DNA of 64,000 nucleotides from Candidatus Woesearchaeota archaeon (GTDB taxonomy: Archaea > Nanobdellota > Nanobdellia > Woesearchaeales > UBA10216), in contig JACPBS010000005.1 of NCBI GenBank assembly GCA_016180195.1, positions 44,262 to 108,261 on the forward strand, in the 5' to 3' direction. Of this stretch, positions 25,545-51,029 are shown piece by piece. Within the stretch, counting starts at the first letter, position 1. Each line of letters begins with the position of its first letter. The notes beneath the pieces are model-generated. The model saw only the letters and a program-made list of their open reading frames with translations. It was not told the DNA's origin and did not search any database. Made by a program: the position numbers and the translations under genes.

Positions 25545-25548
25545 TTTC

Positions 25549-27264: not shown

Positions 27265-27265
27265 T

Positions 27266-27553
27266 TTACAGATCGATTCCTATTGACCTCTTTATGAGTT
27301 TGTTTATGTTCTCTTCTGAATTTTCTGTTGAAAGGACGATGAACAGGGGCTTTATTGAATCCTCGAGTTCCTTCCTTTCGTAGTCCTCGAGCTTTCCCAT
27401 GGTCTTGTCATCTATTATTATGACTCCGAATTCGTTTTTTGTCAGTCTTTTTATCTCTTGCGCTTTTTCGATGTTGAACGTTTTTATTCCAACCAGTTCG
27501 AATCCTAAAGTAAATTCCCCGGGTCCTATTGCGGCTATTTCCATTTTAGGCAA
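27266..27553 (-). CDS. atpF: A-type ATP synthase subunit F
   Basis: Subunit F is a small Rossmann-like stalk subunit that contacts D. The 95-residue protein has [22 protein letters not shown] and [35 protein letters not shown], matching the family pattern of GPGEFTLGF-type starts. It overlaps atpC by eight bases. Confidence 0.93.
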
Positions 27554-28574
27554 CTATCTGGCCCTCCACGAATTCCTGCTGAAGGCCCAGCTGTTTTGAT
27601 TTTATGAGCATCTTGAGGTTTCTTGCTTCTATTTCCTTTGCGAAAAGGTATCCGAAAATGGCATCGGCCTTTAGAGGCCTCTGGTGCAGCATCTTTAGCC
27701 CGCTTTCAAGAAGATGCTTGAAGAGGCTTGTCTCGAGGTATATCAGTGTTCCCTTCTTTTTATATTCATCCAGTCCGTGCTTGGCGTGTTTTCCATATTT
27801 GCTGTTTTCTATGATTCCTGGCAGATCCTCGAGTGATGCTCCTGCCAGCCTTTTAACTGTCTTGCTTGGCGAGCTTATGAGGTATTTTTGTATTTCCCCC
27901 CGGTCCATTCCTTCCCTTTTGAACCTGAATATGTTGATTATGTTCCTTATCTCTATTTCATTCTCAAGGAATTGCCGGAATAGCGATTTTCCGGTGATTT
28001 CAATGACCTTGCTGTAATATTCCTTGTCCAGCATGTTTTCTATTTCAACGAGGTTTTGGGATTTATCGCGGATTTTTTTTAGGGTTGGCCTGTCAAGCAC
28101 TTCAGCCAGCATCTCTTCCATCGTTGCCTTCTTCATCAGGTCTTTCAGGAATTGGATTGGTAGCGCGTATGGCTCCATTAGGTGTTCAATTTCAGTTTCA
28201 CCGGTGTATTTGGCCCTTAATGACGTCTTGACATTGTACAGGTCATGTCTCATCAGGTAGATGTCAAGGAATTGCCTCAGCTTCATTGGTGTTATGCGCC
28301 TTAGCTTTTTATGGGTGTTGGAAAGGTTTTTGTTGATTGCTATTTCTGCAAGCTGCATGCCCTTGTGGATGAGCGCGACCTCGTCTATCTCCTTCTTGTA
28401 CTCTGTTGATTCAAGGAATCCTGTTACCTCATTGAGGCTCATTTTCACGAGCTTGGTGTAGTCGCTTTTCTTGAGGAGTGCTGATTTCATGACTGACACT
28501 CGTGCATAAGTGTAAGGGTAGCTTTGGTTTAGTGCGCCCGGGCTAGTCTGTCCTGAATAGTATTTTTGCAACAT
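27546..28574 (-). CDS. atpC: A-type ATP synthase subunit C
   Basis: Subunit C (homologous to eukaryotic subunit d) couples the rotor to the membrane ring. The 342-residue, helical protein starts with YPYTYARVSVMKSALLKKSDYTKLVKMSLNEVTGFLESTEYKKEI, the expected pattern, and has IRNIINIFRFKREGMDRGEI further on, where homologues carry an RN(I/L)xxxLR-type motif. It overlaps atpE by 29 bases. Confidence 0.93.
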   Translation of the reverse strand: MLQKYYSGQTSPGALNQSYPYTYARVSVMKSALLKKSDYTKLVKMSLNEVTGFLESTEYKKEIDEVALIHKGMQLAEIAINKNLSNTHKKLRRITPMKLRQFLDIYLMRHDLYNVKTSLRAKYTGETEIEHLMEPYALPIQFLKDLMKKATMEEMLAEVLDRPTLKKIRDKSQNLVEIENMLDKEYYSKVIEITGKSLFRQFLENEIEIRNIINIFRFKREGMDRGEIQKYLISSPSKTVKRLAGASLEDLPGIIENSKYGKHAKHGLDEYKKKGTLIYLETSLFKHLLESGLKMLHQRPLKADAIFGYLFAKEIEARNLKMLIKSKQLGLQQEFVEGQIVA

Positions 28575-29094
28575 CTTTCAGCGATTTCTCCCTGACTTGG
28601 TCTAGGATTGATTCATAACTGTAGTCTATTCTGATTGTCCCGTCCTTGTTTTCAGCTATTATGCCCCCGATGATTGGCGCTGCCTGTGTTTTGAGGCCTT
28701 CGATATGTTTTATGTCTGCTTCGCTGCACAGCACCCTTCCGGGCTCCATTTGATTTTTCGCTTTAGAAATAAGCGACTTGATGTGCTCCTTTCTAGTCGA
28801 TTGGGGCATTTTCGAAATCTCCTGCCTTGCGCTCTCGAAGGCTTCCTCAATTATCCTTTTCCTTGTCTCCAGCAGCATCTTGTTTACTTCAAGCTCTGCC
28901 GAAGACATTTCCCTTATCTTGAGCTCTTCAAGCTCTCTCGCTGTTTCTTCCTCTGCTTTTTTTTTCTTTTCTCTTGATTTCTCTTCGGCTGATTCTATTA
29001 TGGCTTTGGCTTCCTTTTCAGCTTCCGAGATGATTGCTGCATGCTGTTTTTTTGATTTTGCAATCACCTCATCCCTGACCTTTTCTATGCCCAT
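28543..29094 (-). CDS. atpE: A-type ATP synthase subunit E
   Basis: Subunit E pairs with H to form the peripheral stalk. The 183-residue protein starts MGIEKVRDEVIAKSKKQHAAII, followed by a long charged coiled coil (about 10-100) and a globular C-terminal domain (GGIIAENKDGTIRIDYSYESILDQVREKSLKDVAKILF), as in the family. The ATG at 29094 directly follows the atpK stop (TGA-AAAG-ATG) and is preferred over the in-frame ATG at 29115 inside atpK. Confidence 0.94.
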   Translation of the reverse strand: MGIEKVRDEVIAKSKKQHAAIISEAEKEAKAIIESAEEKSREKKKKAEEETARELEELKIREMSSAELEVNKMLLETRKRIIEEAFESARQEISKMPQSTRKEHIKSLISKAKNQMEPGRVLCSEADIKHIEGLKTQAAPIIGGIIAENKDGTIRIDYSYESILDQVREKSLKDVAKILFRTD

Positions 29095-29098
29095 CTTT

Positions 29099-29326
29099 TC
29101 AGCCGCCTTTCGCAAGCCCGAGTATCATGATTGCTATGACAAGGCCGAATATGACGAGGGTTTCAGGTATTACTGTCATTAGAAGTCCCTTCCCGAAGAA
29201 TTCATCCTTTTCAGCCATTGCACCTATCGCGGCACTTCCTATTTCTTTCTCGGCAAGTGCTGCCCCTATGGCGCTGATGCCTATTGCAAGGCCTGCGCCT
29301 ATAGCTATCAATCCTGTTTCTGCCAT
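29099..29326 (-). CDS. atpK: A-type ATP synthase rotor-ring subunit K (c subunit)
   Basis: The 75-residue protein is a single two-helix hairpin: GLIAIGAGLAIGISAIGAALAEKEIGSAAIGAMAEK, then VIPETLVIFGLVIAIMILGLA. The Glu in PET in helix 2 is the ion-binding carboxylate. One hairpin per subunit gives a ring with one carboxylate per 75-residue unit. The coupling ion cannot be decided with certainty by eye. Confidence 0.95.
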   Translation of the reverse strand: MAETGLIAIGAGLAIGISAIGAALAEKEIGSAAIGAMAEKDEFFGKGLLMTVIPETLVIFGLVIAIMILGLAKGG

Positions 29327-29330
29327 TATT

Positions 29331-31205
29331 TCACCTCGTAGTGTTTTCTCCGAATGGTTTGTAGGGCTTTGCGCCTCCTATAAAAAATTTTGTGAAAAAT
29401 TCAACGTATTCGAGCCTTAGGGAATGCAGGAATGAGCCGAGCAGCCCGAGGACTATGTTCAGTACGTGTCCCAGCAATAGTATGATGATCCCTATTACCA
29501 CTGAAAAGCCGCCCTGATGGAATGATTCCTTGGCGAATTCGTTGATTATGATTGCTAGCTGTACCGATGCCAGGCCTACTGCCATGAGCCTTGCGTATGA
29601 AAGGATGTTGCTGAAGATTGTTATTGATTCAACAATGGCCTTGAATGCCCCTATTGTTCCTGTCCTCATTTCGCCTATTGCAAGCATGACCACTCCGGCA
29701 ATTAGCAGTGAAAGGGAAATTGTGAGATAGGGTTGCATTATTTTTATTATCCCTAAGGATGCCAGGATGAAAGGGCCTCCAGCTTCGATTAGGAACCAGC
29801 TGAATTTTTCAAGGATGGCTTGCTTGAGCCCATGGTGCTTCAGCTCGTTATAGAAGCCTGCCAGCAGCCCTATGTTGATGTGAACTGCGCCTAGGATCAG
29901 AGAGGCGACAAGCAGCTGTTGTATGCCTTCCTCGTGCGCTCTGCTCATAAGTCTTGGTAGCTCCATTCCCAGAAGATTTTCCTCCCCGAAGAATTCGCCG
30001 AATACAAATCCGAATAAGATGGAGGATGCTGATGCCAGTGCAAGTATTGTTGCGAGGTTCTTTGCCTTTTCCATTTTAGCCCTGATTAATAGGGAAAGGG
30101 CAAGGGTTACCATTCCATATCCTATGTCGCCAAGCATGAATCCGAAAAAGATCGGGAAGGTCAGGAATAGTATTATTGTCGGGTCTATTTCGTTGTAGAC
30201 TGGCAGGCCTCTTAAGTGCATGAGAAATTCAAATGGCCTTGCCGGTTTTATGTTATGCAGCTTTACCGGTGCCTCTTCCTCGTCAAATTCCTCCTCCCTT
30301 ATGTATATTTTTCCGGAAGCTGCCTTTTCCAGCCTTTTTTTCAGGCTGATCATTGAAGAAGTGGGTACCCAGCCTGTTATTACCGCGATGTTCCTGGTTG
30401 ATCCGAATTTTAGGGGGGCTTGCGCAATTTCAAGTTCTTGTGATATTGATTTCTCGAATGATGCCAGGCTTTGCTGCCAGTTATGTTTTAGCTTCTTTAG
30501 CTCCTGTTTGGTTTTTTCCCGCTCGCCTTCAGCCAGTCTTATCTCCTTGACTATCCGTTGGGCATGGATTTCTGGGCTTCCTTTCATTCCCGAGAATGAC
30601 TCGGTTGGTATCTCGGTGAATCCGTTGTTTGAAAGGATTTCAAATGCCTTCTGCCTATTTTCCTTGTTGATGAAAAGTGCGAAGGCTGACTTGTCTTCGG
30701 GTTCGAATATCCTGAATTTGTCAGTCTCCCTGTGAAGCTCCCTTTTGGCCTTGTCCATGCTTTTGCATGTTCCTGTGATGCATGACAGGTTCTGGTAGCC
30801 GCTGTATGACTCGAGTGGCAGGCCGATCTTGGCAATGCATTGAAGGTCTGCCTGCAACTGGGTCATCCGTTTTAGGTCTTCTTCCAATTTTTTGAGCTTT
30901 TCATTTTTGTCAGTGACTTCGTTGTGGAGTTTCCTTATGCTCTTTTCCACGTATGTAATGTCAGGCTGGCCATGCCCTGTCTTGAGGTTGTGTTCTGTGC
31001 GGAGGTGGGACTGAAGCGACCTTATCAATACAAGGAGTTCGGATAGTTTTTCGGCATTTTCGAATGGCTCTCCGATGTCCAGTTCAGCTTTTTCATGCTC
31101 GTGGATGTGAAGGACTCTGGAAGAATGAAGCTCTTTTACCGCCCTTTCCAGCTGGGTTTTTGGAACGATGATCCTTGCCTTGGTCATCCGCTGGGGCATG
31201 ATCAT
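29331..31205 (-). CDS. atpI: A-type ATP synthase subunit I (a subunit)
   Basis: Subunit I forms the stator ion half-channels. The 624-residue protein has a soluble N-terminal half with coiled coils (about 80-290) and a C-terminal half with about seven membrane segments, including FPIFFGFMLGDIGYGMVTLALSL and FSNILSYARLMAVGLASVQLA. The Arg in SYARLMAVG is the essential stator arginine. Length is typical. It overlaps the subunit H stop by four bases (ATGA). Confidence 0.96.
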   Translation of the reverse strand: MIMPQRMTKARIIVPKTQLERAVKELHSSRVLHIHEHEKAELDIGEPFENAEKLSELLVLIRSLQSHLRTEHNLKTGHGQPDITYVEKSIRKLHNEVTDKNEKLKKLEEDLKRMTQLQADLQCIAKIGLPLESYSGYQNLSCITGTCKSMDKAKRELHRETDKFRIFEPEDKSAFALFINKENRQKAFEILSNNGFTEIPTESFSGMKGSPEIHAQRIVKEIRLAEGEREKTKQELKKLKHNWQQSLASFEKSISQELEIAQAPLKFGSTRNIAVITGWVPTSSMISLKKRLEKAASGKIYIREEEFDEEEAPVKLHNIKPARPFEFLMHLRGLPVYNEIDPTIILFLTFPIFFGFMLGDIGYGMVTLALSLLIRAKMEKAKNLATILALASASSILFGFVFGEFFGEENLLGMELPRLMSRAHEEGIQQLLVASLILGAVHINIGLLAGFYNELKHHGLKQAILEKFSWFLIEAGGPFILASLGIIKIMQPYLTISLSLLIAGVVMLAIGEMRTGTIGAFKAIVESITIFSNILSYARLMAVGLASVQLAIIINEFAKESFHQGGFSVVIGIIILLLGHVLNIVLGLLGSFLHSLRLEYVEFFTKFFIGGAKPYKPFGENTTR

Positions 31206-31522
31206 TTTATTGCTTCCTCAAAATAGGATATGATGGTTTCGATTGCCTTTTCCTTTCTTCTTGAGGCCTTCTTCTCAATTTCCTTTATTTCTGATTTCCC
31301 GGCTTCCTTTATCTTTTCCTTGGCCAGCCTTATCTTTTCCATGCCCTCAGACATCACCTTTTCGTGGTAATCCTGTATCTCCTTGTCCCTCATATTAATT
31401 ATCTTGTGGCAGGTTATCTTCGCGTCTTCCACTATCTCAGTCTTCCTTTTCTCTGCAGTGCGGAGCATGTCCTCAGCTTCCTTTTCTGCCTTTTTTATTT
31501 CATCTAAAATGTCCTGTGCCAT
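31202..31522 (-). CDS. ahaH: A-type ATP synthase peripheral-stalk subunit H
   Basis: The 106-residue product starting MAQDILDEIKKAEKEAEDMLRTAEKRKTEI is an almost pure coiled coil, as expected for subunit H, which pairs with E. An in-frame start at 31552 would run into the RNase P RNA and is rejected. The ATG at 31522 lies only 12 bases after the RNase P RNA 3' end, so H and the rest of the operon may be transcribed from the RNase P promoter. Confidence 0.88.
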   Translation of the reverse strand: MAQDILDEIKKAEKEAEDMLRTAEKRKTEIVEDAKITCHKIINMRDKEIQDYHEKVMSEGMEKIRLAKEKIKEAGKSEIKEIEKKASRRKEKAIETIISYFEEAIK

Positions 31523-39787: not shown

Positions 39788-41358
39788 ATTACGCCATTCT
39801 TAAATTTGGGGGTAGCTGTTTCTCTACTTTGGAAAGGACTTTGCAGACTCTGGGTATAATAAAATATCATCATGATCGCGGCGATAACCCCGTTGTTGTG
39901 GTTTCTGCAGTTGGTGTTCCTAAAGGATCGGATAAGCCAAAGACCACTGATAAGCTTCTTAGGGTTGTCTCGCTTTTGTATGATTTGCATCAATATGACA
40001 GGGCCCTGGATTTGGTCCGGGAAGTGAAATCCCCTTATCTGGAACAAGGAATAAGTTTTGGCTGCACTGATGATGATTTTATTGCTCTCGGGAGGCTTGA
40101 GCATGTTTGCAGCACGCGAGGATCTGCTGATTTTTCATCGGGCTTGAAGTCGAATTTTTTTGAATCGAACATTCCGGAAGGGATGCTTCGTTCTGCATTG
40201 TTGGATGAGTTTGTGAAAGGAGGGGAGATCGGAACATCAATGTTGATAACGAGGGGTTTGGAAAGCATGGGGATTCCTTCGGTTGCAGTTTATTCCCCGG
40301 ATGCAGGCTTTATCTCGGATTCGCAGTTCACGAACGCAAGTCTTCTGAAGTCCAGCCTTGATTCCGAAATTGCACGTGAATTCATAAGGCTGTCAGGAAG
40401 GAATAAGGGAAGCGTTCTGGTTTACCAGGGGTTTATAGCCAAGGATATGCACGGTAACAGCACAACTCTTGGAAGGGATGGTTCAACTGCAACTGCATTG
40501 GCTATTGGATCTGCGATAAATGCCAGGTCCATAATCATATATTCTGATGACCAGGTGCTTCCCATTGATCCCAAAATAATTCCCAACAATACCCCAATAG
40601 ACCAGTTATGCTATTCTGAGATGGCCGCACTTGCTTATAATGGATTGAAAGTGTTTCCTCTTAGCATGCTTTCAGTCCTTGTTCAGAAGCAAAGGCTTCC
40701 GCCAATTTACATGAGAAGCGTTGAAAGGCCGGACGATGTTGGTACGCTGATAAAGAACAATGCCAAATATTCAGGGGTTGCACGCGCAATGGCTGTGAGG
40801 AGGAATATTGGCTACAGGGAGTTTTTTATTGATAATGAAGGGCAGAAAGAAAGGCTAATCTCCACTATAAATGAATATGATGGCGTTTCAATCCTGAAAC
40901 ATGTTGATGAGGTTGATCCAAGAGGCAGGAAGCTCTATTTTGTTTATCAGTTTGATCCAAGATTCATTGATGTGCTTAGGGAGGATCCTGAGCGGATGCA
41001 AAATATTTCTGATAAGGTAAGCACATCCGACCCCGAATTTCCTTCTGATCTAGGCAGATATTTCAAGGAGACTCTGTTCCTTCATCTTAAGCAGGCATAT
41101 GGAAGTTCCTTCAGGGATGGGGTTATTCAGCTTCATAATGCAAGCATACTTACGATTGTTGGCAGTGATCTTGGAAAATCATATGATGCGATTTCCAGGG
41201 TGATGGCAATCATAGGAAGGGTTCAGCCTCATCAGAAGCTCCAGCATACTGTTCACAGGTTTCCTATAGTTAGGGAGGCTGATTATATCCAGCTTGTTAT
41301 TCCAAGGGGGCTTGAGAATGTGGCTGCAGAAATATACAATGAGCTTTACAGGGCCTGA
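39784..41358 (+). CDS. lysC: Aspartate kinase
   Basis: Phosphorylates aspartate, the first step to homoserine. The 524-residue protein has KFGGSCFS, VVVVSAVGV, GGEIGTSMLITRGLESMG, LGRDGSTATALAIGSAI and VFPLSMLSVLVQKQRLPPIYMRS. The C-terminal part (about 340-524) is ACT-domain-like, with ILTIVGSDLGKS. It starts inside the homoserine dehydrogenase stop codon, so the pair acts like a split ThrA. Other genes of the pathway are not in the window. Confidence 0.9.
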   Translation: MNYAILKFGGSCFSTLERTLQTLGIIKYHHDRGDNPVVVVSAVGVPKGSDKPKTTDKLLRVVSLLYDLHQYDRALDLVREVKSPYLEQGISFGCTDDDFIALGRLEHVCSTRGSADFSSGLKSNFFESNIPEGMLRSALLDEFVKGGEIGTSMLITRGLESMGIPSVAVYSPDAGFISDSQFTNASLLKSSLDSEIAREFIRLSGRNKGSVLVYQGFIAKDMHGNSTTLGRDGSTATALAIGSAINARSIIIYSDDQVLPIDPKIIPNNTPIDQLCYSEMAALAYNGLKVFPLSMLSVLVQKQRLPPIYMRSVERPDDVGTLIKNNAKYSGVARAMAVRRNIGYREFFIDNEGQKERLISTINEYDGVSILKHVDEVDPRGRKLYFVYQFDPRFIDVLREDPERMQNISDKVSTSDPEFPSDLGRYFKETLFLHLKQAYGSSFRDGVIQLHNASILTIVGSDLGKSYDAISRVMAIIGRVQPHQKLQHTVHRFPIVREADYIQLVIPRGLENVAAEIYNELYRA

Positions 41359-42365
41359 TTGTCGTTCCTTAGCTGCTCTATTTCCCTTTCAAGCCTTTCT
41401 ATTTCCGGTTGCGGGTCAGGGTTTACAATAACATGGTTTGCTATTATCTCCACCCTGTTGAACATCTCGTTTTTCGATGCCCTTCCCCGTATCTTCACGT
41501 TTGATCCGAGCACCTCGTTCCTTATGTTCTCAAAGAGCTCTGGTGCATCCTTGTACTGGAGAAGTTCTTCATGGCTCTTTCCAAGCAGGTTTTGTGCTTG
41601 GTCCCTGAAGAACACTGCTCTTATGCTGTCAGTTCCGTCGTCAATGAATCCGTTAAGAACGTAAGAGTATTCTGGCTTTGTGATGCCGTGCTGCTCGCAG
41701 ACAGGCCCTTTTTCTGATTGCCTTAGTTTTTTCCCGCATCCGCATACCTCGAAATATCTTGGCTCAAATACCTGGATTAGGGTTGCGATTACTTCTACCG
41801 AATTTTCTGTGCCTTCAAGCTGTGATAGCTGTTTTCTTGCAGATGCCTGCGGCTTTATTTCCACGTTAACTGTTTCCCCTTCCGGGTTTATTATTAGCTT
41901 TCCCCGTTCATTGAGGTGTATCTCGTTTGATGAGTTCCTGTCCTTTACATAGCCGCCCTTTATCTTTATTATGTCACCTGGCTTGATCTTCGACGAGTTG
42001 TCAGCCTGGCCTCCCCAAAGGACTATTCGTATCTGCCCGGTCTCGTCTGCAGCCATCAGTGATGAAAGCTTTCCTTCCCTTCCGTTGCTGTTGAATGTCC
42101 TTGTTTCGTATATTGCAGTTGCCTTTGCAATTATTTCCACATCCCTCATGCCTGAGAGTATGTTCTTTATTTCAAGCTTTCCTGATTGCTGCTCAAAGAG
42201 CCTTATGCCGAGCTCATTTGCAAGTATGTGGGCTGCCCCCTCCCTGCTGACAAGCCCTGAAAGCTGCTTTACCTTGCTCTCGACCTTGTTCCTTATTTCT
42301 TCCTCATCAAGCCCTGATTTTTCCTTGATCTTTGCTACAAGCTCGTCAAATGAGAATTTAAGCAT
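41346..42365 (-). CDS. rpa: Replication protein A (single-chain, OB folds with zinc finger)
   Basis: Single-stranded DNA-binding protein for replication and repair. The 339-residue protein has an N-terminal helical region, an OB fold (about 70-165: VEIIAKATAIYETRTFNSNGREGKLSSLMAADETGQIRIVLWG), and a second OB fold interrupted by a zinc finger (CGCGKKLRQSEKGPVCEQHG). The last 25 residues are a coiled coil (PEIERLEREIEQLRND). A TATA-like box (42382-42396) supports the ATG at 42365. The 3' end overlaps the aspartate kinase by 13 bp. Confidence 0.92.
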   Translation of the reverse strand: MLKFSFDELVAKIKEKSGLDEEEIRNKVESKVKQLSGLVSREGAAHILANELGIRLFEQQSGKLEIKNILSGMRDVEIIAKATAIYETRTFNSNGREGKLSSLMAADETGQIRIVLWGGQADNSSKIKPGDIIKIKGGYVKDRNSSNEIHLNERGKLIINPEGETVNVEIKPQASARKQLSQLEGTENSVEVIATLIQVFEPRYFEVCGCGKKLRQSEKGPVCEQHGITKPEYSYVLNGFIDDGTDSIRAVFFRDQAQNLLGKSHEELLQYKDAPELFENIRNEVLGSNVKIRGRASKNEMFNRVEIIANHVIVNPDPQPEIERLEREIEQLRNDNQAL

Positions 42366-42406
42366 GAAGTGAAAAGGCAAGATAAATATAAATAAGTTGT
42401 GGTAAT

Positions 42407-43699
42407 CTAGTTGAGATATTCGCTCACATCAGCTTTTCTTGCCTTCTCAACGTAGTTGTTGTCTGTGCATTTGCATCCGTTATAATACCTGAATGCGTAA
42501 TCCCACTTCTTGTATTTCCCTTTGCAGGAATAGCATTCCTCGTTGTCAATTCTTCCTTGCTTTTCCTTCTGCTCATATTCGAGATAGCCTGCCTTAAGAT
42601 ACATTATCCCTGCCTCTATGTTGCATTCCATGTCATCTATCGTTTTTCCCGAGCATGATTCGGTCCCTGTGCATATCTGGCTGCTTGACGGGTCGTATTT
42701 TATTGTCCCGATGCACTGCTTGTGTGCGCATGTGTTTATCTGCATTATTCCTGTTGAGCAGCCATTGTCGCCTTTTTTCACGTTTCCTTTTGAATCTGTA
42801 TGCTGGAATGTGAATCCGCTTTCGATTGCTGCTATTTTAAGTGCAGCTTCTTTAGGCACTCCTTGCTTTTCTGAAATTTGCTTTATTACCTCAATCTCAC
42901 TTATTGCGATTGGAATGGGCTCTTTTGAAATGGCGAACCTTATTTCTTCGTTCCCTTTTTTTGCGCAGATTTTGACTGGTTTCGAACTTTCAGGGTGTTG
43001 GCCGCAGCCGACTTCAAGTATTGCATTGCCTGCTTTTTGGTTGTTGGATTCCATCATGCATTCTTCGAAGTCGTCATTTCTGAGGCATTCCTCGGTCAGG
43101 CTTTTTGCCTTTGCAGCTATGTCGTCATATGGCGAGAAATCGTTTTGAATGGCGATCCTGAAAGAGGGTATTATGGAATAGTATATGGAGTCTTTCTTTC
43201 CATTGCCTTGGAGCGCCATGGGCTTGCTTGAGGATATGTAAATATCGCTGTCGGCGAATGAGTATCTGTATTCAGAGGGCATCTCTGCTTCCATGTAGTT
43301 CAGGTAGTAATGTTTAAGCTTTCTTGAGATGGCTGTTTCAAGCCCTTTTTTTGCATCTTTTGAGGAAGGGAAGCATTCCTTTTCCCCGTTTTTCCACATG
43401 TTGAATCCTTCAAAGCTGCCGCATGGTGATTTGCCGCTATACCCGCCATTTCTTTCGATTTCGGCCAACGCCATCCCTGCAGACAGCCTTGCAGCCTCTT
43501 CTGCATAATACATTGCCTTTTCCCCTTCTGCATACATTGCAAATAATTCAAACTGCCTTTCGCCTACCGTTTTGCCTTTGGATACCTTGTCGAATTTCAC
43601 CTCCTTGTCAATCAGGAGGTAAGAGATCATTGTCAGGCTTAGCATGAACACCAGCGTGACTATTATTGCTGTTTGTTCTCCTTTTTTTCCTATTATCAT
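42407..43699 (-). CDS. Membrane-anchored protein with lytic-transglycosylase-like (SLT) domain
   Basis: The 430-residue protein has a class III-like N-terminus (GKKGEQTAIIVTLVFMLSLTMISYLLI), an extracellular helical region, and a C-terminal domain (about 280-420) of the lysozyme/SLT type: ISEKQGVPKEAALKIAAIESGF with Glu293 at the catalytic position, then CSTGIMQINT (about 314-323). The domain has many Cys, suggesting disulfides. It is the last gene of the pilin-like operon. An archaeon without murein has no obvious substrate, so it may act on bacterial walls or have another glycan or structural role. Confidence 0.85.
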   Translation of the reverse strand: MIIGKKGEQTAIIVTLVFMLSLTMISYLLIDKEVKFDKVSKGKTVGERQFELFAMYAEGEKAMYYAEEAARLSAGMALAEIERNGGYSGKSPCGSFEGFNMWKNGEKECFPSSKDAKKGLETAISRKLKHYYLNYMEAEMPSEYRYSFADSDIYISSSKPMALQGNGKKDSIYYSIIPSFRIAIQNDFSPYDDIAAKAKSLTEECLRNDDFEECMMESNNQKAGNAILEVGCGQHPESSKPVKICAKKGNEEIRFAISKEPIPIAISEIEVIKQISEKQGVPKEAALKIAAIESGFTFQHTDSKGNVKKGDNGCSTGIMQINTCAHKQCIGTIKYDPSSSQICTGTESCSGKTIDDMECNIEAGIMYLKAGYLEYEQKEKQGRIDNEECYSCKGKYKKWDYAFRYYNGCKCTDNNYVEKARKADVSEYLN

Positions 43700-43700
43700 T

Positions 43701-44249
43701 TTAGTAGTTGGTCTTTTTCACTGTTCTCTGTATCATCTTTATGCTGTTGGACGGTTTCGTGGTGGGTATTTGGATTTCTGATCTTGGTGCTGTTGCGAGT
43801 TCGCCTGGGCCTGCCATCTTACATTCTAGTGATTGTTTTGTCCATTCTGTGTTAAGCCAAATCTTCTTGCCTTTGTTGTCTTCAATCTCAAGAATCACGC
43901 ATTTGTTTTCGTATGTTTTAAGGTAATCTGCTGCTGCTTCATCAATTTCGGCACTTAGCTCGTTGAATCTTGATTCGTCGTTTGCAGTCCATGAGTCATG
44001 TAGCTCTTGTATTAGCGCAGTCGTGGTTTCATGCCTTACAGTAGTGCTTTTCAGGAAGTTAAGCTGGTTTATGATAGTGATGTACTCATCAGATCTCTTT
44101 ACGTCGCTCCCTATTATGAATCCTTTTTTGGTTATCTGGTTCAGCATTCCGGGCCTGGATAGCGATGATAGTAGGAGTATTATCACTGCTGCTGTGAACG
44201 CGATTGTGGCCAGGATTATTATTGCAGGGCTTATTCCTTTCTTTTTCAT
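43701..44249 (-). CDS. Pilin-like secreted protein (class III signal), operon gene 10
   Basis: The 182-residue protein starts MKKKGISPAIIILATIAFTAAVIILLL, the short basic stretch plus 20-residue hydrophobic helix of archaeal type IV pilin-like proteins. The rest is a soluble ectodomain with few cysteines. I recognise no fold. It is one base from the SLT gene and overlaps the upstream gene by four bases, so it is clearly in the operon. Confidence 0.78.
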   Translation of the reverse strand: MKKKGISPAIIILATIAFTAAVIILLLSSLSRPGMLNQITKKGFIIGSDVKRSDEYITIINQLNFLKSTTVRHETTTALIQELHDSWTANDESRFNELSAEIDEAAADYLKTYENKCVILEIEDNKGKKIWLNTEWTKQSLECKMAGPGELATAPRSEIQIPTTKPSNSIKMIQRTVKKTNY

Positions 44250-44683
44250 TCTATTGCCTCAATCTTCCCGGGTTTTCCCCTGCCTTCCTCAATCAGGTAA
44301 GTTTCCTTTTCATTTTTGTGCGCATCAAAACCCACCCGTGGCCTCATTCTTACGAACCATTTCTGGTTGTAGTACATCTCGTGTTCCCCGTATCTTATTG
44401 ATGCGCTTATTACTGTACGGTTGCCGAAATCAATTTCCCTGTCAACATCCTTTGAAACCTCTATGTTCCCCACTTGAAGCCTCCCGGTATCCTTTTCAAC
44501 CTTGGAGATCTCATTAATCAGCCTGTTTGAGATGATTTGTAGTTCAGCGTCCTCTATCTGTATTTTTTTTTCAGTGTAGATGAAGAATATTGCGGTTGTT
44601 ATGACAACTACGTATATGAGGTACGCGATTGTCATGATGTGGACAAGGTTCTCGTCTATCTGGCCATGTTTTCTGCTTCGCAT
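44246..44683 (-). CDS. Membrane-anchored hypothetical protein, operon gene 9
   Basis: The start MRSRKHGQIDENLVHIMTIAYLIYVVVITTAIFFIY gives a basic N-terminus and one helix, followed by a 100-residue ectodomain. The ATG at 44683 is preferred to the one at 44728, because it leaves a short basic head like that of the neighbours. It overlaps gene 8 by 28 bp. No known domain is seen. Confidence 0.72.
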   Translation of the reverse strand: MRSRKHGQIDENLVHIMTIAYLIYVVVITTAIFFIYTEKKIQIEDAELQIISNRLINEISKVEKDTGRLQVGNIEVSKDVDREIDFGNRTVISASIRYGEHEMYYNQKWFVRMRPRVGFDAHKNEKETYLIEEGRGKPGKIEAIE

Positions 44684-45462
44684 TTCGGTAGCTCTTTTAT
44701 CTCTATGGTGGGCGTTGCCCATTGCCATGTTCTGGTTTTTTCATTGTTAATTATCACTGCTTCATCTTTCAGCATTATCCAGTTCCAGCTAGACATGGAT
44801 TCGTCTGGCGTGATTATGTATGTTTCCATTCCGTTTGTTTCGATGTAGTTTAGCTGAGGCAGCGTTTCTGTGGAGATCTCTGTTGTCCCGTCTTCGGAGC
44901 TGTAGTATAGTGCAGAATTCCCGTTTCCTGAAATGATTATGTAATATCCTTTTTCAAGCACTATTGGATAGGATTCTATGCATTTGAAATTATAGCTTCT
45001 TTTTGTGCTCCCTTTTACGAACTCGGTTAGCTCCCTGAATTTCCTAATCGCAGATCTTTCATTGTCGTTGTATATTCCTTTAATCGCTATTTCATTTCTT
45101 TTTTTTGTTATCTTTATCGCCCTCGGAGCTCCGTCAGATGAAAATTTTAACTCATTGAATTCATGGCTTGAGGCATAATAATGGGTTGATTTCGCCCTTT
45201 TTTCGGCGTCCTTTACAGTAACCAGGTGATTCCCTATTGATATCTGGAAATGCTCGGGAAGGCTGTATGTGTATTCGAGGTCTCCTGGGCTTGCATAAAT
45301 TGTATCGAGAAGCAGTGCAAGGTCCTTTGAAACATACTCCCTCTCCAGTGTTGTGTCTGAACCCAGTCGGGTTACAAGAGAGGTTAATGCGATGACAGTA
45401 AGGGCTGCAATCGTGAGGCCTATCAGCGAGTATACTACTATGTATTGCCCTCTTTTCCCCAT
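44656..45462 (-). CDS. Pilin-like secreted protein (class III signal), operon gene 8
   Basis: The 268-residue protein starts MGKRGQYIVVYSLIGLTIAALTVIALTSLV, a compact class III-like signal with KRGQ before the hydrophobic helix. The ectodomain is beta-rich (IVLEKGYYIIISGNGNSALYYSSEDGTTEIST) and ends in a short Cys-containing tail. No family is recognised. It is 22 bp downstream of gene 7. Confidence 0.75.
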   Translation of the reverse strand: MGKRGQYIVVYSLIGLTIAALTVIALTSLVTRLGSDTTLEREYVSKDLALLLDTIYASPGDLEYTYSLPEHFQISIGNHLVTVKDAEKRAKSTHYYASSHEFNELKFSSDGAPRAIKITKKRNEIAIKGIYNDNERSAIRKFRELTEFVKGSTKRSYNFKCIESYPIVLEKGYYIIISGNGNSALYYSSEDGTTEISTETLPQLNYIETNGMETYIITPDESMSSWNWIMLKDEAVIINNEKTRTWQWATPTIEIKELPKCEAENMAR

Positions 45463-45484
45463 GCTTTCACTTTGGGAAATCTGT

Positions 45485-46000
45485 TTAAATAGTTTTTCTA
45501 GATGGATCTGCTGTGCATGACATCAGTGCAAGGTCATTTTTTTCCCTTTGGGCCATGATGCAAATCGTTTTTTTCTTGTTCCCATCGAATGCCACGTTTT
45601 GGGCCTTTCCAATGTTTTCTTCCAGCCCGTAGGCTAGGAAGTTTTCAACCCCTTCTACGCCTTTGCAGTAAGTTTCCTCCCTTGCCTTGCATTCTGGGTC
45701 TTTGCACAGGCATAGGCATGATCCTGAGTTGCATTGGGGGTTCTCGGGTTTTTTTATGGTCTTGCCGTTTGAGAGGCTAAGTGTTGCCGAGTTGAAGCCG
45801 TATAAGTAATCCTTGATGTATATGTTCTTCATAAATGGCTCGTTCTGCTTTGCATTGTCAGCTAATTGTATGAAGTCGTTGAGGGATTCAACTTGATTGG
45901 GCTCCCCGATCGTTATGATTTTCGCGAAGAATAGCATTACTAGGATTATGAACGGGACTATAATGACCGCTCTTATTATCGTGTCTTTCGATTCATCCAT
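45485..46000 (-). CDS. Cys-rich membrane-anchored protein, operon gene 7
   Basis: The 171-residue protein has one N-terminal helix (IIRAVIIVPFIILVMLFFAKIITI) and an ectodomain with eight cysteines, including CNSGSCLCLCKDPECKAREETYC, which suggests disulfides or metal binding outside the cell. Its ATG overlaps gene 6 by eight bases. Function unknown. Confidence 0.75.
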   Translation of the reverse strand: MDESKDTIIRAVIIVPFIILVMLFFAKIITIGEPNQVESLNDFIQLADNAKQNEPFMKNIYIKDYLYGFNSATLSLSNGKTIKKPENPQCNSGSCLCLCKDPECKAREETYCKGVEGVENFLAYGLEENIGKAQNVAFDGNKKKTICIMAQREKNDLALMSCTADPSRKTI

Positions 46001-46226
46001 CAGAGCAGCACCATTTTGTTTCCTTTGGGCAGCCTGACTTGATACATATTTGCCCTTCTATCCGGTCTCGTTCACAGCTGCCTTGGCATTGGTTGAGGCC
46101 TGTTATGCTGTCAACTATTTTTCCGATGTTGCCTGTAAAGATCAGTATTACCACTATGAGGACTGTGAGCGCTATTGCCGCAACTGTTATTGTTTCGAAT
46201 GACAGGCTGACTGCATTTTTTTTCAT
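45993..46226 (-). CDS. Short pilin-like protein with Cys-rich tail, operon gene 6
   Basis: The 77-residue product starts MKKNAVSLSFETITVAAIALTVLIVVILI; the SLSFETI stretch is a strong class III/pilin-like pattern. The short ectodomain has six cysteines (CQGSCERDRIEGQICIKSGC...CC). AAAGGTGG directly upstream fixes the ATG at 46226 and rejects the longer frame from 46280. Confidence 0.8.
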   Translation of the reverse strand: MKKNAVSLSFETITVAAIALTVLIVVILIFTGNIGKIVDSITGLNQCQGSCERDRIEGQICIKSGCPKETKWCCSDG

Positions 46227-46741
46227 GTTACCACCTTTCTTTGGCATTTTCCGCTTGACCCCAGGAAGCCTCCCTTGCATTCAATGTATTCTGGCGCGCA
46301 GCATTCGCCTGCATTCCCTCCGATTATCGGATACCCTCCTCCGCAGTTTTCACCCTCATTTTGGCAGCTCTTGCACTCGTTGCCCTTCCTTCCTGTTCCT
46401 GCAGGGCAGTAGTCTATGATGCAGTTTTCCCTGCAAATGTCATACTCTCCTTTCCTGAAGTTGACTGGCTTGTAGTGCCTTGGGTCGCAGTTTTCGTCTT
46501 TTATCCCGCTTTTTCCCCACCTGATGCACTCTGGCACCCATTTTCCGTCCTCCATCCTTGCCTTTTGGCACTTGAAATACCCTTCTTCGCATTTTTCGCC
46601 GAAATCAAACATCTCGCTTACTGTTTCAACAATTCCTTTCAGGGTTGGTTCTGTAAGGCCTCTTGCTATTACTAGCAGTATTATGCCTGCAAAAATGTAA
46701 AGAGCAGGTTTTATTAGGTTCTCGATCGCTATGCTTGTCAT
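46223..46741 (-). CDS. Very Cys-rich membrane-anchored protein, operon gene 5
   Basis: The 172-residue protein has one N-terminal hydrophobic segment (IKPALYIFAGIILLVIARGL) and an ectodomain with 15 or more cysteines in short-spaced pairs (CRENCIIDYC, CKSCQNEGENCGGG, GECCAPEYIECKGG). The layout is like knottin or EGF-like domains. It overlaps gene 6 by four bases (ATGA). No homologue is known to me. Confidence 0.8.
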   Translation of the reverse strand: MTSIAIENLIKPALYIFAGIILLVIARGLTEPTLKGIVETVSEMFDFGEKCEEGYFKCQKARMEDGKWVPECIRWGKSGIKDENCDPRHYKPVNFRKGEYDICRENCIIDYCPAGTGRKGNECKSCQNEGENCGGGYPIIGGNAGECCAPEYIECKGGFLGSSGKCQRKVVT

Positions 46742-46742
46742 T

Positions 46743-46892
46743 TTACCCGAATCTGAGTATTTCCATTATCTTGGAGAAAAGGTTTTCTGCGCCCCCTCTT
46801 AATATTATTACCCCTCCTATTGATACTAGCAGCAATCCCAAACCTATCAGGAACATTATCAGGATGTGCCATTGTAATCCCTTCTTTTTCAT
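46743..46892 (-). CDS. 49-residue pilin-like membrane protein, operon gene 4
   Basis: This short frame encodes MKKKGLQWHILIMFLIGLGLLLVSI, followed by a short tail ending in KIMEILRFG. The basic head KKKG and single hydrophobic helix match its neighbours. The stop is one base before the ATG of gene 5. Confidence 0.72.
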   Translation of the reverse strand: MKKKGLQWHILIMFLIGLGLLLVSIGGVIILRGGAENLFSKIMEILRFG

Positions 46893-46916
46893 GTCCTTTT
46901 CTTGGCTGCCTTGTTT

Positions 46917-47900
46917 TTATATTTGTTGCTTGACTGGTAATTCCTCACATCCCAGGTCTTTCAGGAGGTTTTCATCGTATTTCCCGAAGATCGTGAATGC
47001 AGTCCAGTCCCTTATGATGTTCTTTTTTGAATAGGCTTCAATAGAGGCATCCATTGCAGTTTCTAGCGTGATTCCCCTTATTATTGCAGCTCCCCCGGCC
47101 ACTACGAGTGCTGCTCCTGCTGGCAGCCCAACTCCAGTTACCCCGACAGCGAATCCTCCTGCAAGCATCACTGCCCCCCCTATTACCGAAATCTTCCCGC
47201 TGTTGCTTTCCCAGTATTTTCCTATGAATTCCATCATGTTTTCTAGCATGGGCTCGCTTTTTGCGTAGACGAAAACAACCGCATAGGCACTGTCAGGATC
47301 AAAAGTTGTCTGTTTCAGTTCCTCCCTGTTCTTTGTGTCTATTTCAGGCTTTATTCCCCCTTTTTTGCCTCGCATGTAGTCCAGGTACGTTATCCCTTCC
47401 TTTGCCAGTTCCTTGTTTGGAACAGTATTCTTGCGCAGGTAGTCTAAGAATTGGTACCCGTTTATTTCCATATCTTCCTTGAAGGTTATTATTGAGCATA
47501 CGCTGCAGTACTTTTTGGGCCCTCCGAAAAGGTCAAGCTTCCCTTCGCCAAACTGGTTCCAGCAGTTGTATATCTCGTCTGCAATGGGCTTTTCCGCATG
47601 ATCGCCTAGCTTGATGCTTCTGGTCTTTCCCCTGTATTCAATGCTGTATTTTGTCTTTTCAAATTCCAGGTATGTTGGTGGGCAGTTTATTATTTCGTCA
47701 GGTGGGTTGTAGGATTTTATGTGCAGGTTGGAGTGCCTTATCACGCTTTGCTTGCATGGCTCCCTGGAAAACCCGCTTTCTATCCCTGATGTTATCAGGC
47801 CTGTATATGATAGAAGGGCGAATATGGTTATTGCTAGCAGGATCAGGCTCATTATTGCTGATACAGTTACCCCTTTCCTCACCCATAGAGTTTTTCGCAT
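46917..47900 (-). CDS. Membrane protein of a tandem paralogue pair (copy 2), operon gene 3
   Basis: The 327-residue protein has an N-terminal helix (VTVSAIMSLILLAITIFALLSY), an ectodomain with ADEIYNCWNQFGEGKLDLFG...CSVCSIITF, and a Gly/Ala-rich hydrophobic stretch (about 235-275). The ectodomain matches gene 2 at the DE(I/L)Y-x-CW-x3-GEG-x-(I/L)D-x-FG...C-x-VCS pattern. A GTG at 47882 overlapping the gene 2 stop (GTGA) is an alternative start giving a tidier class III signal. Function unknown. Confidence 0.8.
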   Translation of the reverse strand: MRKTLWVRKGVTVSAIMSLILLAITIFALLSYTGLITSGIESGFSREPCKQSVIRHSNLHIKSYNPPDEIINCPPTYLEFEKTKYSIEYRGKTRSIKLGDHAEKPIADEIYNCWNQFGEGKLDLFGGPKKYCSVCSIITFKEDMEINGYQFLDYLRKNTVPNKELAKEGITYLDYMRGKKGGIKPEIDTKNREELKQTTFDPDSAYAVVFVYAKSEPMLENMMEFIGKYWESNSGKISVIGGAVMLAGGFAVGVTGVGLPAGAALVVAGGAAIIRGITLETAMDASIEAYSKKNIIRDWTAFTIFGKYDENLLKDLGCEELPVKQQI

Positions 47901-48880
47901 TTTTTCCCCACTTCTGATGTTGGCATCATCTCTACAAGAAGCACTCGCGGGACTTGATCTCCGTTTGCTGTTTCAAATGTCTTGTATGATCCGAACATCA
48001 GGAGTCCTCTTTGCATGCCTTTCTTTATCAGAGGGCTTTCCTTGCATGCGAGCGCGAACGTTGCCCCGCCTGCTTTCGATATCTTGCTCCCCACCATCAG
48101 GATCTTTGAAGGAAGCTTGGCTGATCCCGGGATTTTTCCGGCAAGGCTTACAAACCATCCTAGTGCGGGAAGCGCTGTTGAGCACGCAGTGCCCCCCAGT
48201 CCTGTGAGGCCCCCTACGAGCAGGAGGTCTTTTAGCTTGTCGGGCTTGACTGATATGAATACTATTGATTGTGGCTGGGTTTCCAGATCGATCTGGTATA
48301 CTTGCCCATCTTCATTTCTTGCGCCTCCGCTCAGAAAGTCCCAGTATGTGGTTTGTGCTCCTCTGGAGTCTTTGACATAATTGTTCTTCAGGAAGATGTT
48401 GAACTCCTCGAATTTTTCCTTTTTGTATGTTACCTGGCTGTCGAACTCTATCTGGCTGCATACCACGCATTTTGATGAGTCGTCGTAGTTCCCGAACGGG
48501 TCTATTTCCCCCTCTCCCAGGTATTTCCAGCACCGGTATAGCTCATCGGCAACTGCCTTCTGCATGTAGTGATTTGGGTTGTCATTGAATCTTCTGTAGT
48601 TGACGTTATCTTTTTGGTACGTTTTCCCGTTGTATGCGTAGATCCCGTCCTCTTTTATCTTCACGTAGTGTGTTTCGCATTTGAGGTCGTTTATTATCGG
48701 TGATTCCAATCCGAAGAATTTGGTTCCTGCCATTGTTGTTGCGGACATGCTGCACATTAGGTTCTGGCCTTGCCCGGATAAGATGGGGATTATTGTGTAT
48801 ACCAGGCCAAGAAGCGTGAAGAATATGATGGCAAATAATATTGTAGAGAATAGCGGGTTTCCATCTTGTGCTTTTTTCAT
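47879..48880 (-). CDS. Membrane protein of a tandem paralogue pair (copy 1), operon gene 2
   Basis: The 333-residue protein has an N-terminal helix (LFSTILFAIIFFTLLGLVYTIIPIL) and an ectodomain with VADELYRCWKYLGEGEIDPFG...CVVCSQIEF, shared with gene 3, then a Gly-rich hydrophobic part (about 220-245). Two CxxC-like sites may bind metal or form disulfides. It overlaps gene 1 and gene 3, so it is within a tightly coupled operon. Confidence 0.8.
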   Translation of the reverse strand: MKKAQDGNPLFSTILFAIIFFTLLGLVYTIIPILSGQGQNLMCSMSATTMAGTKFFGLESPIINDLKCETHYVKIKEDGIYAYNGKTYQKDNVNYRRFNDNPNHYMQKAVADELYRCWKYLGEGEIDPFGNYDDSSKCVVCSQIEFDSQVTYKKEKFEEFNIFLKNNYVKDSRGAQTTYWDFLSGGARNEDGQVYQIDLETQPQSIVFISVKPDKLKDLLLVGGLTGLGGTACSTALPALGWFVSLAGKIPGSAKLPSKILMVGSKISKAGGATFALACKESPLIKKGMQRGLLMFGSYKTFETANGDQVPRVLLVEMMPTSEVGKKCEKLYG

Positions 48881-48996
48881 TTGGGCAATAATGCAGATAG
48901 AAGGTCTTTGTATATCGTAATTAGGGCGATGAAGGCTGCCACGGCTATTATCAGTATCACCAGCATCTGGAAGTTGATTTCACCTCTTTTTTGCAT
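48877..48996 (-). CDS. 39-residue pilin-like protein, first gene of the operon
   Basis: This short frame encodes MQKRGEINFQMLVILIIAVAAFIALITIY plus a ten-residue tail. KRGE before the hydrophobic helix is a good class III cleavage context. The stop overlaps the ATG of gene 2 (ATGA). It is the gene closest to the inverted-repeat region at 49038-49124 and so probably the first in the transcript. Confidence 0.75.
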   Translation of the reverse strand: MQKRGEINFQMLVILIIAVAAFIALITIYKDLLSALLPK

Positions 48997-49037: not shown

Positions 49038-49124
49038 ATTAGTAAGTGACAAAAGAGCTTATAATAATCGCTTACTAATATTTGTCAGACATGAGTAATC
49101 CATAAAATTGTCATGTCTGACAAA
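49038..49124. promoter_or_regulatory. Two perfect inverted repeats between the pilin-like operon and the kinase-like gene
   Basis: IR1 is ATTAGTAAG (49038-49046) with CTTACTAAT (49071-49079). IR2 is the 14-bp TTTGTCAGACATGA (49081-49094) with TCATGTCTGACAAA (49111-49124). The start codon of the gene at 49113 lies inside the right arm of IR2. A further TGACAAAA is at 49047-49054. Bound protein or RNA hairpins here could control both divergent units. TATA candidates lie in the AT-rich stretches. Confidence 0.7.
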
Positions 49125-51029
49125 AAGTTTTTATTAATCCTTGCGTATGGGCCCAATATGGGCCTTGAGGAAATGCTTGCCCGTTCGAGGGTTTATGCCG
49201 AGCCGTTGCTTGGCAGGGCTGTTAAATGCATAGACTCTGTTGTGGATTGGTGTTGCAATAACGATGTCTACGCTGCAATGGGGGCTGCATCGGTTGTTGG
49301 AGCTGTCCTATATGCGTTGTTTTCCAGGGTTAGGGTTCCTGATCCTGATATCATGTCTTTGACAGGCTTATTGTTTGCAGGTTTGATTTCTTATTTTTAT
49401 TTTCATGATGAGTATACTTTAAGGAAGCTGGGCGTGAAAAGGGGCTGCCTTGATTTTTCCAGGTTTTCCAAGAACGATCATGGCAAGAATTGTCTCCTTC
49501 AGCTTTGGGACTCGCCATATGAAAACCAGGGTGCGTGGTCCATAATACCTGCTGCATATGCGCTTTCGAGTTCGGTTGTGGTAACTGAAGGAGCACTTCT
49601 TAACGCAGGAGTGGCTTACGTCTCGTCGTATGTAATTTTGAGTGCTTTAAGGTGTGTGTTGCATTCTGATTTGATCATCCCTGCTGTTTGGGAGTCGTAT
49701 GCTTCATTGAGATGGAAGAAGGGCTCTGCAAATTACATATCTGAATTGGAGAAGCTGGTTGAAAGATATCCTTATCCTAATTTTAAATTGATGATTGCAG
49801 ATTCCTATCATGAGGCTGGAATGCCTGATAAAGCGTTTAATGTCGCAAGATCCATCATGGGGAAAATGGTATTGCCGAGGTTCAGTATGTGGTTTATTAA
49901 TGATCACTTGGTTAACACGCTAACCAGCCACCACAGGAATATTGAAGGTTACAGCCCCCGCATGGAATCCTTTTTTTATCTGACAATGGTTTTGGATGAG
50001 CTGGGTGTTGATGGATCTTCACATATAGAGGCCATGTCGGGAAGGTTTGGCTCGGTCGAGTCAGGTCTTCTTGGTTTCTGGTATTATCATGAAAAAGGAA
50101 ACAAGGAAGGGATGCAGAGGCATCTGGAGAGGGTTCTTGGCATTGCTTATGATGATTCGGAGCATTTTGCAAGGGAGCATTTTCCAGGAGGAAGGGTTTT
50201 CAGGTTTTCTCCATCGCATATGAGGGATGATTTCGTGGTGAGGGTTGGTGATGAGCCTGAGCTGAGGTTCGAGTTTTCAATGTCAGGTAAGGCCTATGAA
50301 TTGCTTAAAGGCTCTGATCGTTATGCAGCAACCGAGCCTCTTTTTATGGGCAGGATTTCCGAAGATTCGGTTCTTGTAAGGTCGCAGTTAAGGGGGGAGA
50401 CGCTTTATGATTGCCTGAAAAGCGGAACTGCTGGCTTTGATGACGTGGTTTCGTCATGGGAGCTGACAAGGGCTATCCACAGGCATTTTGTGGGTATTCC
50501 CGGGCTGGCTTATCTTAGGCCTTCTGAGAAGCTGAGGCAGGTTTTGTCTTCAGCCTCATTTGCAGGTAATGCAGGGGAGTTCCTTTTTGCATTTTCAGAG
50601 GTTGCTGAATCCTGTGTCCAAGGGGAGATTGTTTTTAACACTGACGGGCATCCGGGAAACCGTATAATGTCAGGTAAAAAGATAGGGATAATTGATCTAC
50701 AAAACAAGGGTCTTGTCCCTGCTGAGTACGAGGCCGCGAATTATAGATATGTCATATCTCCTGAATTAAGGAAGGAGGAGGATGGGTTTCTGATTCTCAA
50801 TGGCATTGATCCTGTTGCTTACTATGTTCAGGCTGTCATCAAGGATCTTTCATTGTGCGTTTGGTTTTCCAAAGATGGCAGGGAGAGGGCTGTCGAGAGG
50901 GTTCATGATGCGGTTTATGCGATAAAGCAGGTTAAGGATTTTTCGCCATTGTTTTATTCCAGGCATAGCAGGAGCTTTGAAAGAACCTTGTCAGGATTGA
51001 GTATGCTTGAGGAAGACCTGGCTGCCTAG
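49113..51029 (+). CDS. Membrane protein with kinase-like (APH-fold) C-terminal domain
   Basis: The 638-residue protein has hydrophobic segments at about 55-70, 82-97 and 146-180, then a helical region with a TPR-like unit (about 207-250). The C-terminal part looks like an aminoglycoside-phosphotransferase-type kinase: FNTDGHPGNRIM (Asp511, Asn516) is a catalytic-loop match and IGIIDLQNKG (Asp528) is the metal-binding match. The N-lobe lysine is not certain. It is divergent from the pilin-like operon and its start lies in IR2. The substrate is unknown; an RNA, lipid, sugar or protein kinase role are all open. Confidence 0.7.
   Translation: MSDKKFLLILAYGPNMGLEEMLARSRVYAEPLLGRAVKCIDSVVDWCCNNDVYAAMGAASVVGAVLYALFSRVRVPDPDIMSLTGLLFAGLISYFYFHDEYTLRKLGVKRGCLDFSRFSKNDHGKNCLLQLWDSPYENQGAWSIIPAAYALSSSVVVTEGALLNAGVAYVSSYVILSALRCVLHSDLIIPAVWESYASLRWKKGSANYISELEKLVERYPYPNFKLMIADSYHEAGMPDKAFNVARSIMGKMVLPRFSMWFINDHLVNTLTSHHRNIEGYSPRMESFFYLTMVLDELGVDGSSHIEAMSGRFGSVESGLLGFWYYHEKGNKEGMQRHLERVLGIAYDDSEHFAREHFPGGRVFRFSPSHMRDDFVVRVGDEPELRFEFSMSGKAYELLKGSDRYAATEPLFMGRISEDSVLVRSQLRGETLYDCLKSGTAGFDDVVSSWELTRAIHRHFVGIPGLAYLRPSEKLRQVLSSASFAGNAGEFLFAFSEVAESCVQGEIVFNTDGHPGNRIMSGKKIGIIDLQNKGLVPAEYEAANYRYVISPELRKEEDGFLILNGIDPVAYYVQAVIKDLSLCVWFSKDGRERAVERVHDAVYAIKQVKDFSPLFYSRHSRSFERTLSGLSMLEEDLAA

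Follow-up and report, generated by a model that had tools for sequence, protein, structure and literature searches.

The eleven minus-strand genes at positions 42407-48996 of the window (the whole stretch of 64,000 nucleotides that was analysed) appear to form the pilin cassette of a dispersed surface machine that resembles type IV filaments (T4F), occurs across its phylum of small, mostly symbiotic DPANN archaea and most likely serves contact with a partner cell. We give this reading a probability of roughly two in three. The gene system is real and phylum-wide, and we class it as a T4F variant, not as a kind of its own.

The sequence-only reading had described eleven tightly coupled genes of 39, 333, 327, 49, 172, 77, 171, 268, 145, 182 and 430 residues, nearly all encoding a basic head and one hydrophobic helix, several with Cys-rich ectodomains, and the last with a lysozyme-like domain; these observations stand. 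All eleven ORFs are present on the minus strand at the positions given below, and the 327-residue product may have 321 residues if it starts at GTG 47882. Their homologues occur in fixed order in dozens of genomes, which identifies the ORFs as true genes, and the intergenic spacing of -28 to +24 bp makes it likely that they form one transcript. The features of the operon and of the gene directly downstream, in the direction of transcription, are:

48877-48996, minus strand: 39-aa pilin-like peptide (QKRG, then EINFQMLVILIIAVAAF); short TM genes occupy the same position in many relatives
47879-48880, minus strand: CW-1, 333 aa, class III-like head (MKKA) and long N-helix; ectodomain with invariant C43, C68, C138 and C328 in the alignment
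46917-47900, minus strand: CW-2, 327 aa (321 from GTG 47882), a paralogue of CW-1; tandem pairs are frequent in relatives
46743-46892, minus strand: 49-aa pilin-like peptide (KKKG, then LQWHILIMFLIGLGLLL)
46223-46741, minus strand: 172-aa N-anchored Cys-rich protein with 14 Cys; family confined to close relatives, with a homologue in genome G142
45993-46226, minus strand: F77, 77-aa small pilin-like protein with six Cys; 91 members at 35 loci, tandem copies frequent
45485-46000, minus strand: E171, 171-aa N-anchored Cys-rich protein with a CLCL-type motif
44656-45462, minus strand: D268, 268-aa pilin-like protein (GKRG, then QYIVVYSLIGL); C145 immediately next in 43/49 cases
44246-44683, minus strand: C145, 145-aa pilin-like protein starting at ATG 44683, with an R..YPGIID-type motif; present at 33 loci
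43701-44249, minus strand: 182-aa pilin-like protein (KKKG, then ISPAIIILATIAF); homologue in G142
42407-43699, minus strand: terminal protein, 430 aa, pilin-like head (aa 1-260; KKG, then EQTAIIVTLVF) and C-terminal SLT domain (aa 271-417)
41346-42380, minus strand: RPA/ssb-like OB-fold protein (Pfam tRNA_anti-codon, Rep_fac-A_C), directly downstream of the operon

An N-terminal TM helix is predicted for all eleven operon proteins compared to 9 of the 53 other window genes (Fisher p=2e-7), and a strict [KR][GAS] processing site precedes the helix in 7/11 compared to 3/53 (p=5e-5). The other four fail the strict test with starts as called; the 145-aa protein read from ATG 44683 has a basic head too (MRSRKHG, then QIDE). 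Cysteines are concentrated in six proteins, with 16 in the 430-aa, 14 in the 172-aa, 8 each in the 333-aa and 171-aa, and 6 each in the 327-aa and 77-aa products, and the remaining five have 0-2. Apart from the SLT domain of the terminal protein, no operon protein gave a convincing match in Pfam, NCBIfam or PHROGs, and none matched archaellum families in Pfam or NCBIfam. No named archaellum or pilus operon corresponds to these pilins. A phage origin was considered and dropped, as it had a single weak PHROG match and nothing more in its favour.

Since several heads have no strict site and the ectodomains match no known pilin fold, the products could be membrane-anchored surface or S-layer-associated proteins that share a simple N-anchor, are inserted by Sec and make no filament, with no pilin processing. 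We regard this as very improbable. Strict class III sites are found in most members of five families of the relatives, namely CW (86/113), F77 (114/146), MEI (43/58), QIF (23/30) and the terminal family (32/47); with starts as called they are in the minority in C145 (9/48), GES (13/40) and D268 (21/53). The linkage to a secretion-type ATPase and platform, given below, also argues against plain anchored proteins. Structure models neither prove nor exclude a pilin fold. The CW model (pLDDT 77, pTM 0.77) predicts a 45-residue N-helix (residues 9-53) followed by a mixed alpha/beta head, and had no PDB fold match at E<=0.001; a CW sequence search of the PDB also found no match. The model of the terminal protein is dependable over the head only (about pLDDT 80-90, with the SLT part at about 25-35) and likewise had no PDB match at E<=0.001.

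The cassette is widely conserved. Of 145 genomes of the same order, 73 have a homologue of the 333-aa CW protein by single-sequence search, and a CW profile built from 51 sequences recovered the family in 309 of the 371 phylum genomes. Gene order was analysed in 40 neighbourhoods with called genes and with iterative profiles; the loci were picked for carrying CW, so that the order counts describe CW carriers and not all genomes. The named relatives are Candidatus Woesearchaeota and Nanoarchaeota MAGs. In the Woesearchaeota relatives a first block has the fixed order giant Cys-rich anchored protein, QIF, FNW, GES and MEI. This is followed by two CW genes, short TM peptides, F77 (in several copies at many loci) and E171, and then by D268, C145, a 182-like gene, the terminal gene and ssb. 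Direct adjacency was counted for QIF and FNW (21/24), FNW and GES (30/32) and GES and MEI (31/31). The profile searches called for by the earlier reading have thus confirmed a conserved order. The genome G142, which belongs to the same family, has an inversion of the second cassette half.

Two loci from other genomes of this family have much larger Cys-rich proteins in place of the 172-aa gene, with 1139 aa in L037 (3866-7285) and 1874 aa in L039 (2765-8389). Neither of these matched a Pfam domain, and the large in-operon proteins of relatives had no Pfam hydrolase domains. We also considered that the two blocks are paralogous through FNW and D268. A first hhalign probability of 98.7% came from an alignment that contained FNW members; clean alignments match in the N-terminal helix region only (69.8%), and the proposal was rejected.

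The window operon represents only the CW-to-terminal half of this set, because the block with the giant, QIF, FNW, GES and MEI lies on another contig. The FNW profile has a single match in this genome (G000:C21:125444-126403), surrounded by a 333-aa pilin-like protein, a 1566-aa giant protein, QIF, GES, MEI and a further F77 gene. The giant has 80 Cys, PEGA domains and a C-terminal TM helix. While the set is split here over two contigs, many relatives of the order have the two blocks in a single run. The operon had been called self-contained, and this no longer holds: besides the block on C21, the ATPase, platform and M4 genes are located on C10 and a prepilin peptidase on C11.

Three main T2SSE loci were found in this genome. 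The C5 locus combines an ATPase with TadB/TadC-like proteins, and no pilins were seen there; the T2SSE ATPase of the C11 locus has its own classical pilin-like gene. The third locus, on contig C10, encodes a 756-aa ATPase, a 725-aa nine-TM protein and three 4-5-TM proteins (M4). The ATPase matches T2SSE, and the best solved relative of its profile is A. fulgidus GspE (2OAP, E=1e-32). We assign the 725-aa protein as platform-like from its topology and position, since its similarity to T2SSF is marginal (hhalign probability 63-64% in the C-terminal half; one Pfam match with E=0.009). An internal duplication of this protein was rejected, as its two halves do not match. The platform profile is found in 364/371 genomes of the phylum, and ATPase and platform genes are directly adjacent in 16/18 cases. 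A prepilin peptidase (PF01478) was detected above cut-off at G000:C11:16722-17069 (E=1.8e-15).

Among the positions listed, the motor genes of this order mostly lie apart from the cassette, and the assignment of the C10 motor therefore depends on other orders and on L116, a Woesearchaeota record in which the ATPase lies ahead of the giant-FNW block. In other orders of the class the cassette comes directly after the ATPase and platform genes, which adjoin it in seven loci (L093-L097, L099 and L101). Of the 38 other-order genomes with listed positions for both genes, 30 have CW less than 7 kb from the platform gene. A single locus, L136, has the order M4-M4-M4-ATPase-platform-CW-F77-E171-D268-terminal head-ssb, with two divergent small genes as the sole interruption. 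The earlier statement that no secretion ATPase is linked is therefore correct for this genome and incorrect for its relatives. From these gene neighbourhoods the C10-type ATPase and platform are likely to be the relevant motor of the cassette, but the two further T2SSE loci in this genome weaken our preferred reading.

The three M4 genes are conserved upstream of the ATPase/platform pair (L092, which is G000:C10 4987-6692; L136, 15305-16988), and the region also encodes two small soluble proteins on the opposite strand. The two proteins examined gave no match in Pfam, and it is possible that M4 proteins are unrecognised motor components. In two small complete genomes, G207 (L127) and G192 (L128), a second platform paralogue occurs with no ATPase of its own, and genes for Cys-rich anchored proteins (12-24 Cys) come next. 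G192 carries the ATPase-platform pair (L130) and is not one of those listed as matching CW.

The lysozyme-like domain of the terminal protein matches PF01464 above cut-off (E=3.2e-5, aa 271-417) and retains the motifs AAIESGF at 290, GIMQI at 317 and YYNG. By its sequence the protein thus has the features of a GH23/SLT lytic transglycosylase, an SLT domain with a predicted catalytic Glu and GLMQ/YNG-type motifs; a phmmer search of this domain against the PDB found no match. The terminal family (17 aligned members) shares the pilin-like head, with M23 in 6/17 and SLT in 5/17 members. The insertion sites differ, as seen for SLT at 175-307 in L046 and M23 at 194-304 in L047 and 709-809 in L057, and the L055 protein has both M23 (214-308) and SLT (407-515). 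In five members from other orders the protein is a head of 237-269 aa with no Pfam domain, and the G142 homologue from the same family is also without a hydrolase domain. This variation in position and presence suggests that hydrolases were repeatedly gained or lost on a structural subunit. Since they are missing from many relatives, the core function of the machine is something other than wall cutting.

The joining of a hydrolase to one subunit, an ATPase nearest to archaeal GspE and the presence of many different minor-pilin-like subunits with no one obvious abundant major pilin would fit a secretion pseudopilus, a T2SS-like piston for the export of enzymes, the terminal hydrolase among them, that forms no exposed filament. 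However, an outer membrane is not expected in these cells, no secretin-like component was seen, and the giant anchored adhesin-like proteins encoded in the same operon favour a surface structure, so that we consider a pseudopilus unlikely.

The gene downstream of the operon could suggest a different function. A terminal-family gene lies immediately upstream of ssb at 19/24 loci across orders, and small ssb-like and RadA-like genes often come after the ssb position. Together with the nucleic-acid scavenging attributed to DPANN archaea (PMC9723730), this would agree with a competence-like filament that takes up DNA or other nucleic acids and feeds the neighbouring ssb and RadA-type recombination genes. 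We consider this improbable, since ComEC (PF03772) was found in 0/145 genomes of the order and in 10/14 control genomes, no DNA-binding domain was found in the pilins, and the linkage to ssb may merely be an old chromosomal position. The RPA/ssb-like gene is probably a neighbour of the machine and not one of its components.

For the surface machine that we prefer, known T4F biology suggests the following course. The prepilin peptidase would trim the basic heads, and the 756-aa ATPase together with the 725-aa polytopic protein would drive the helices out of the membrane. Several different subunits, held together by disulphides, would make up a short filament or tip complex. The adhesin or docking scaffold could be the giant Cys-rich membrane-anchored protein, and the terminal protein may cap or accompany the tip; in this and similar lineages its lysozyme-like or M23 domain could breach a (bacterial) partner's wall. 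The product would most likely be a disulphide-stabilised, adhesin-bearing filament or tip for partner contact. Surface components such as a pilus tip, an attachment organ or a cell-contact apparatus, as proposed earlier, remain the best fit to the conserved order, the ATPase/platform linkage and the exchangeable wall-hydrolase domains.

Archaeal type IV pili systems of clades 1-4 were described by Makarova, Koonin and Albers (2016; PMC4858521). They share with the machine described here a secretion ATPase, a polytopic platform, class III pilin-like proteins, a large S-layer/adhesin-like protein and, in some groups, Cys-rich minor pilins. Unlike those systems, this machine has pilin families that match no library family, one very long platform-like protein and a hydrolase-bearing terminal protein. 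For some nanoarchaeal T4P ATPases the pilins were never identified (PMC4858521), and two T4P systems and a variable FlaJ/TadC homologue were reported for Nanoarchaeota (PMC6142677).

The earlier claim that no such system has been described holds for the full content, as we found no paper that unites these parts as one system in the mostly open-access literature searched. It does not hold for two of the parts, which were published separately. The diverse-pilin islands of DPANN 'dark matter' combine T4P ATPase/TadC components with many uncharacterised signal-peptide proteins for which a pilin identity is predicted (PMC6393860, Fig. 2A). They are given there as an example only and we liken them by their description, which, unlike the cassette here, mentions no hydrolase in the portion available to us. 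Murein transglycosylases of Pacearchaeota and Woesearchaeota (fam00969, PMC8204110; PMC9723730) are surface proteins with lytic transglycosylase domains in the same lineages. A word search found no pili or pilins in the main texts of these two papers, whereas here the domain is part of the subunit that ends a pilin cassette, and M23 takes its place in some relatives. Archaea are known to have peptidoglycan hydrolases that kill bacteria, and these are prominent in Nanoarchaeota (PMC12352652).

Further features of the window are a 3379-aa surface protein (2-10138, minus strand) with a class III-like head (GKKG, then ATIFVALLAAF), a subtilase S8 domain, an I9 propeptide and PEGA, CARDB, FG-GAP and Ig-like repeats, and a gene run at 24165-31522 (minus strand) that resembles an A-type ATP synthase operon, as judged by eye. 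The latter is notable because cultured Nanopusillus reportedly has no A-type ATP synthase (PMC4935971). A 638-aa protein with no NCBIfam match is encoded at 49113-51029 (plus strand), divergent from the operon, and a 658-aa counterpart adjoins the operon of G142.

A link of the machine to host contact is plausible from its gene content. The attachment organelle of Nanobdellota is a contact organelle with a filament or tube in the same phylum, and the proteins that compose it are not known (PMC11420986, PMC11104419). The machine shares with it only the phylum and the expected kind of structure, with no sequence-level link. That it makes the intercellular filament of this organelle (and its anchoring), as a pilin-derived host-contact device of the whole phylum with a terminal subunit repeatedly armed with wall hydrolases in Woesearchaeota, is a tentative and rather doubtful proposal; if true, many Woesearchaeota would penetrate walled bacterial partners. 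With the gene set, its order, the likely motor that almost every sampled genome of the phylum has, and the attachment of wall hydrolases now named, the set is a concrete candidate for how DPANN cells grip their partners.
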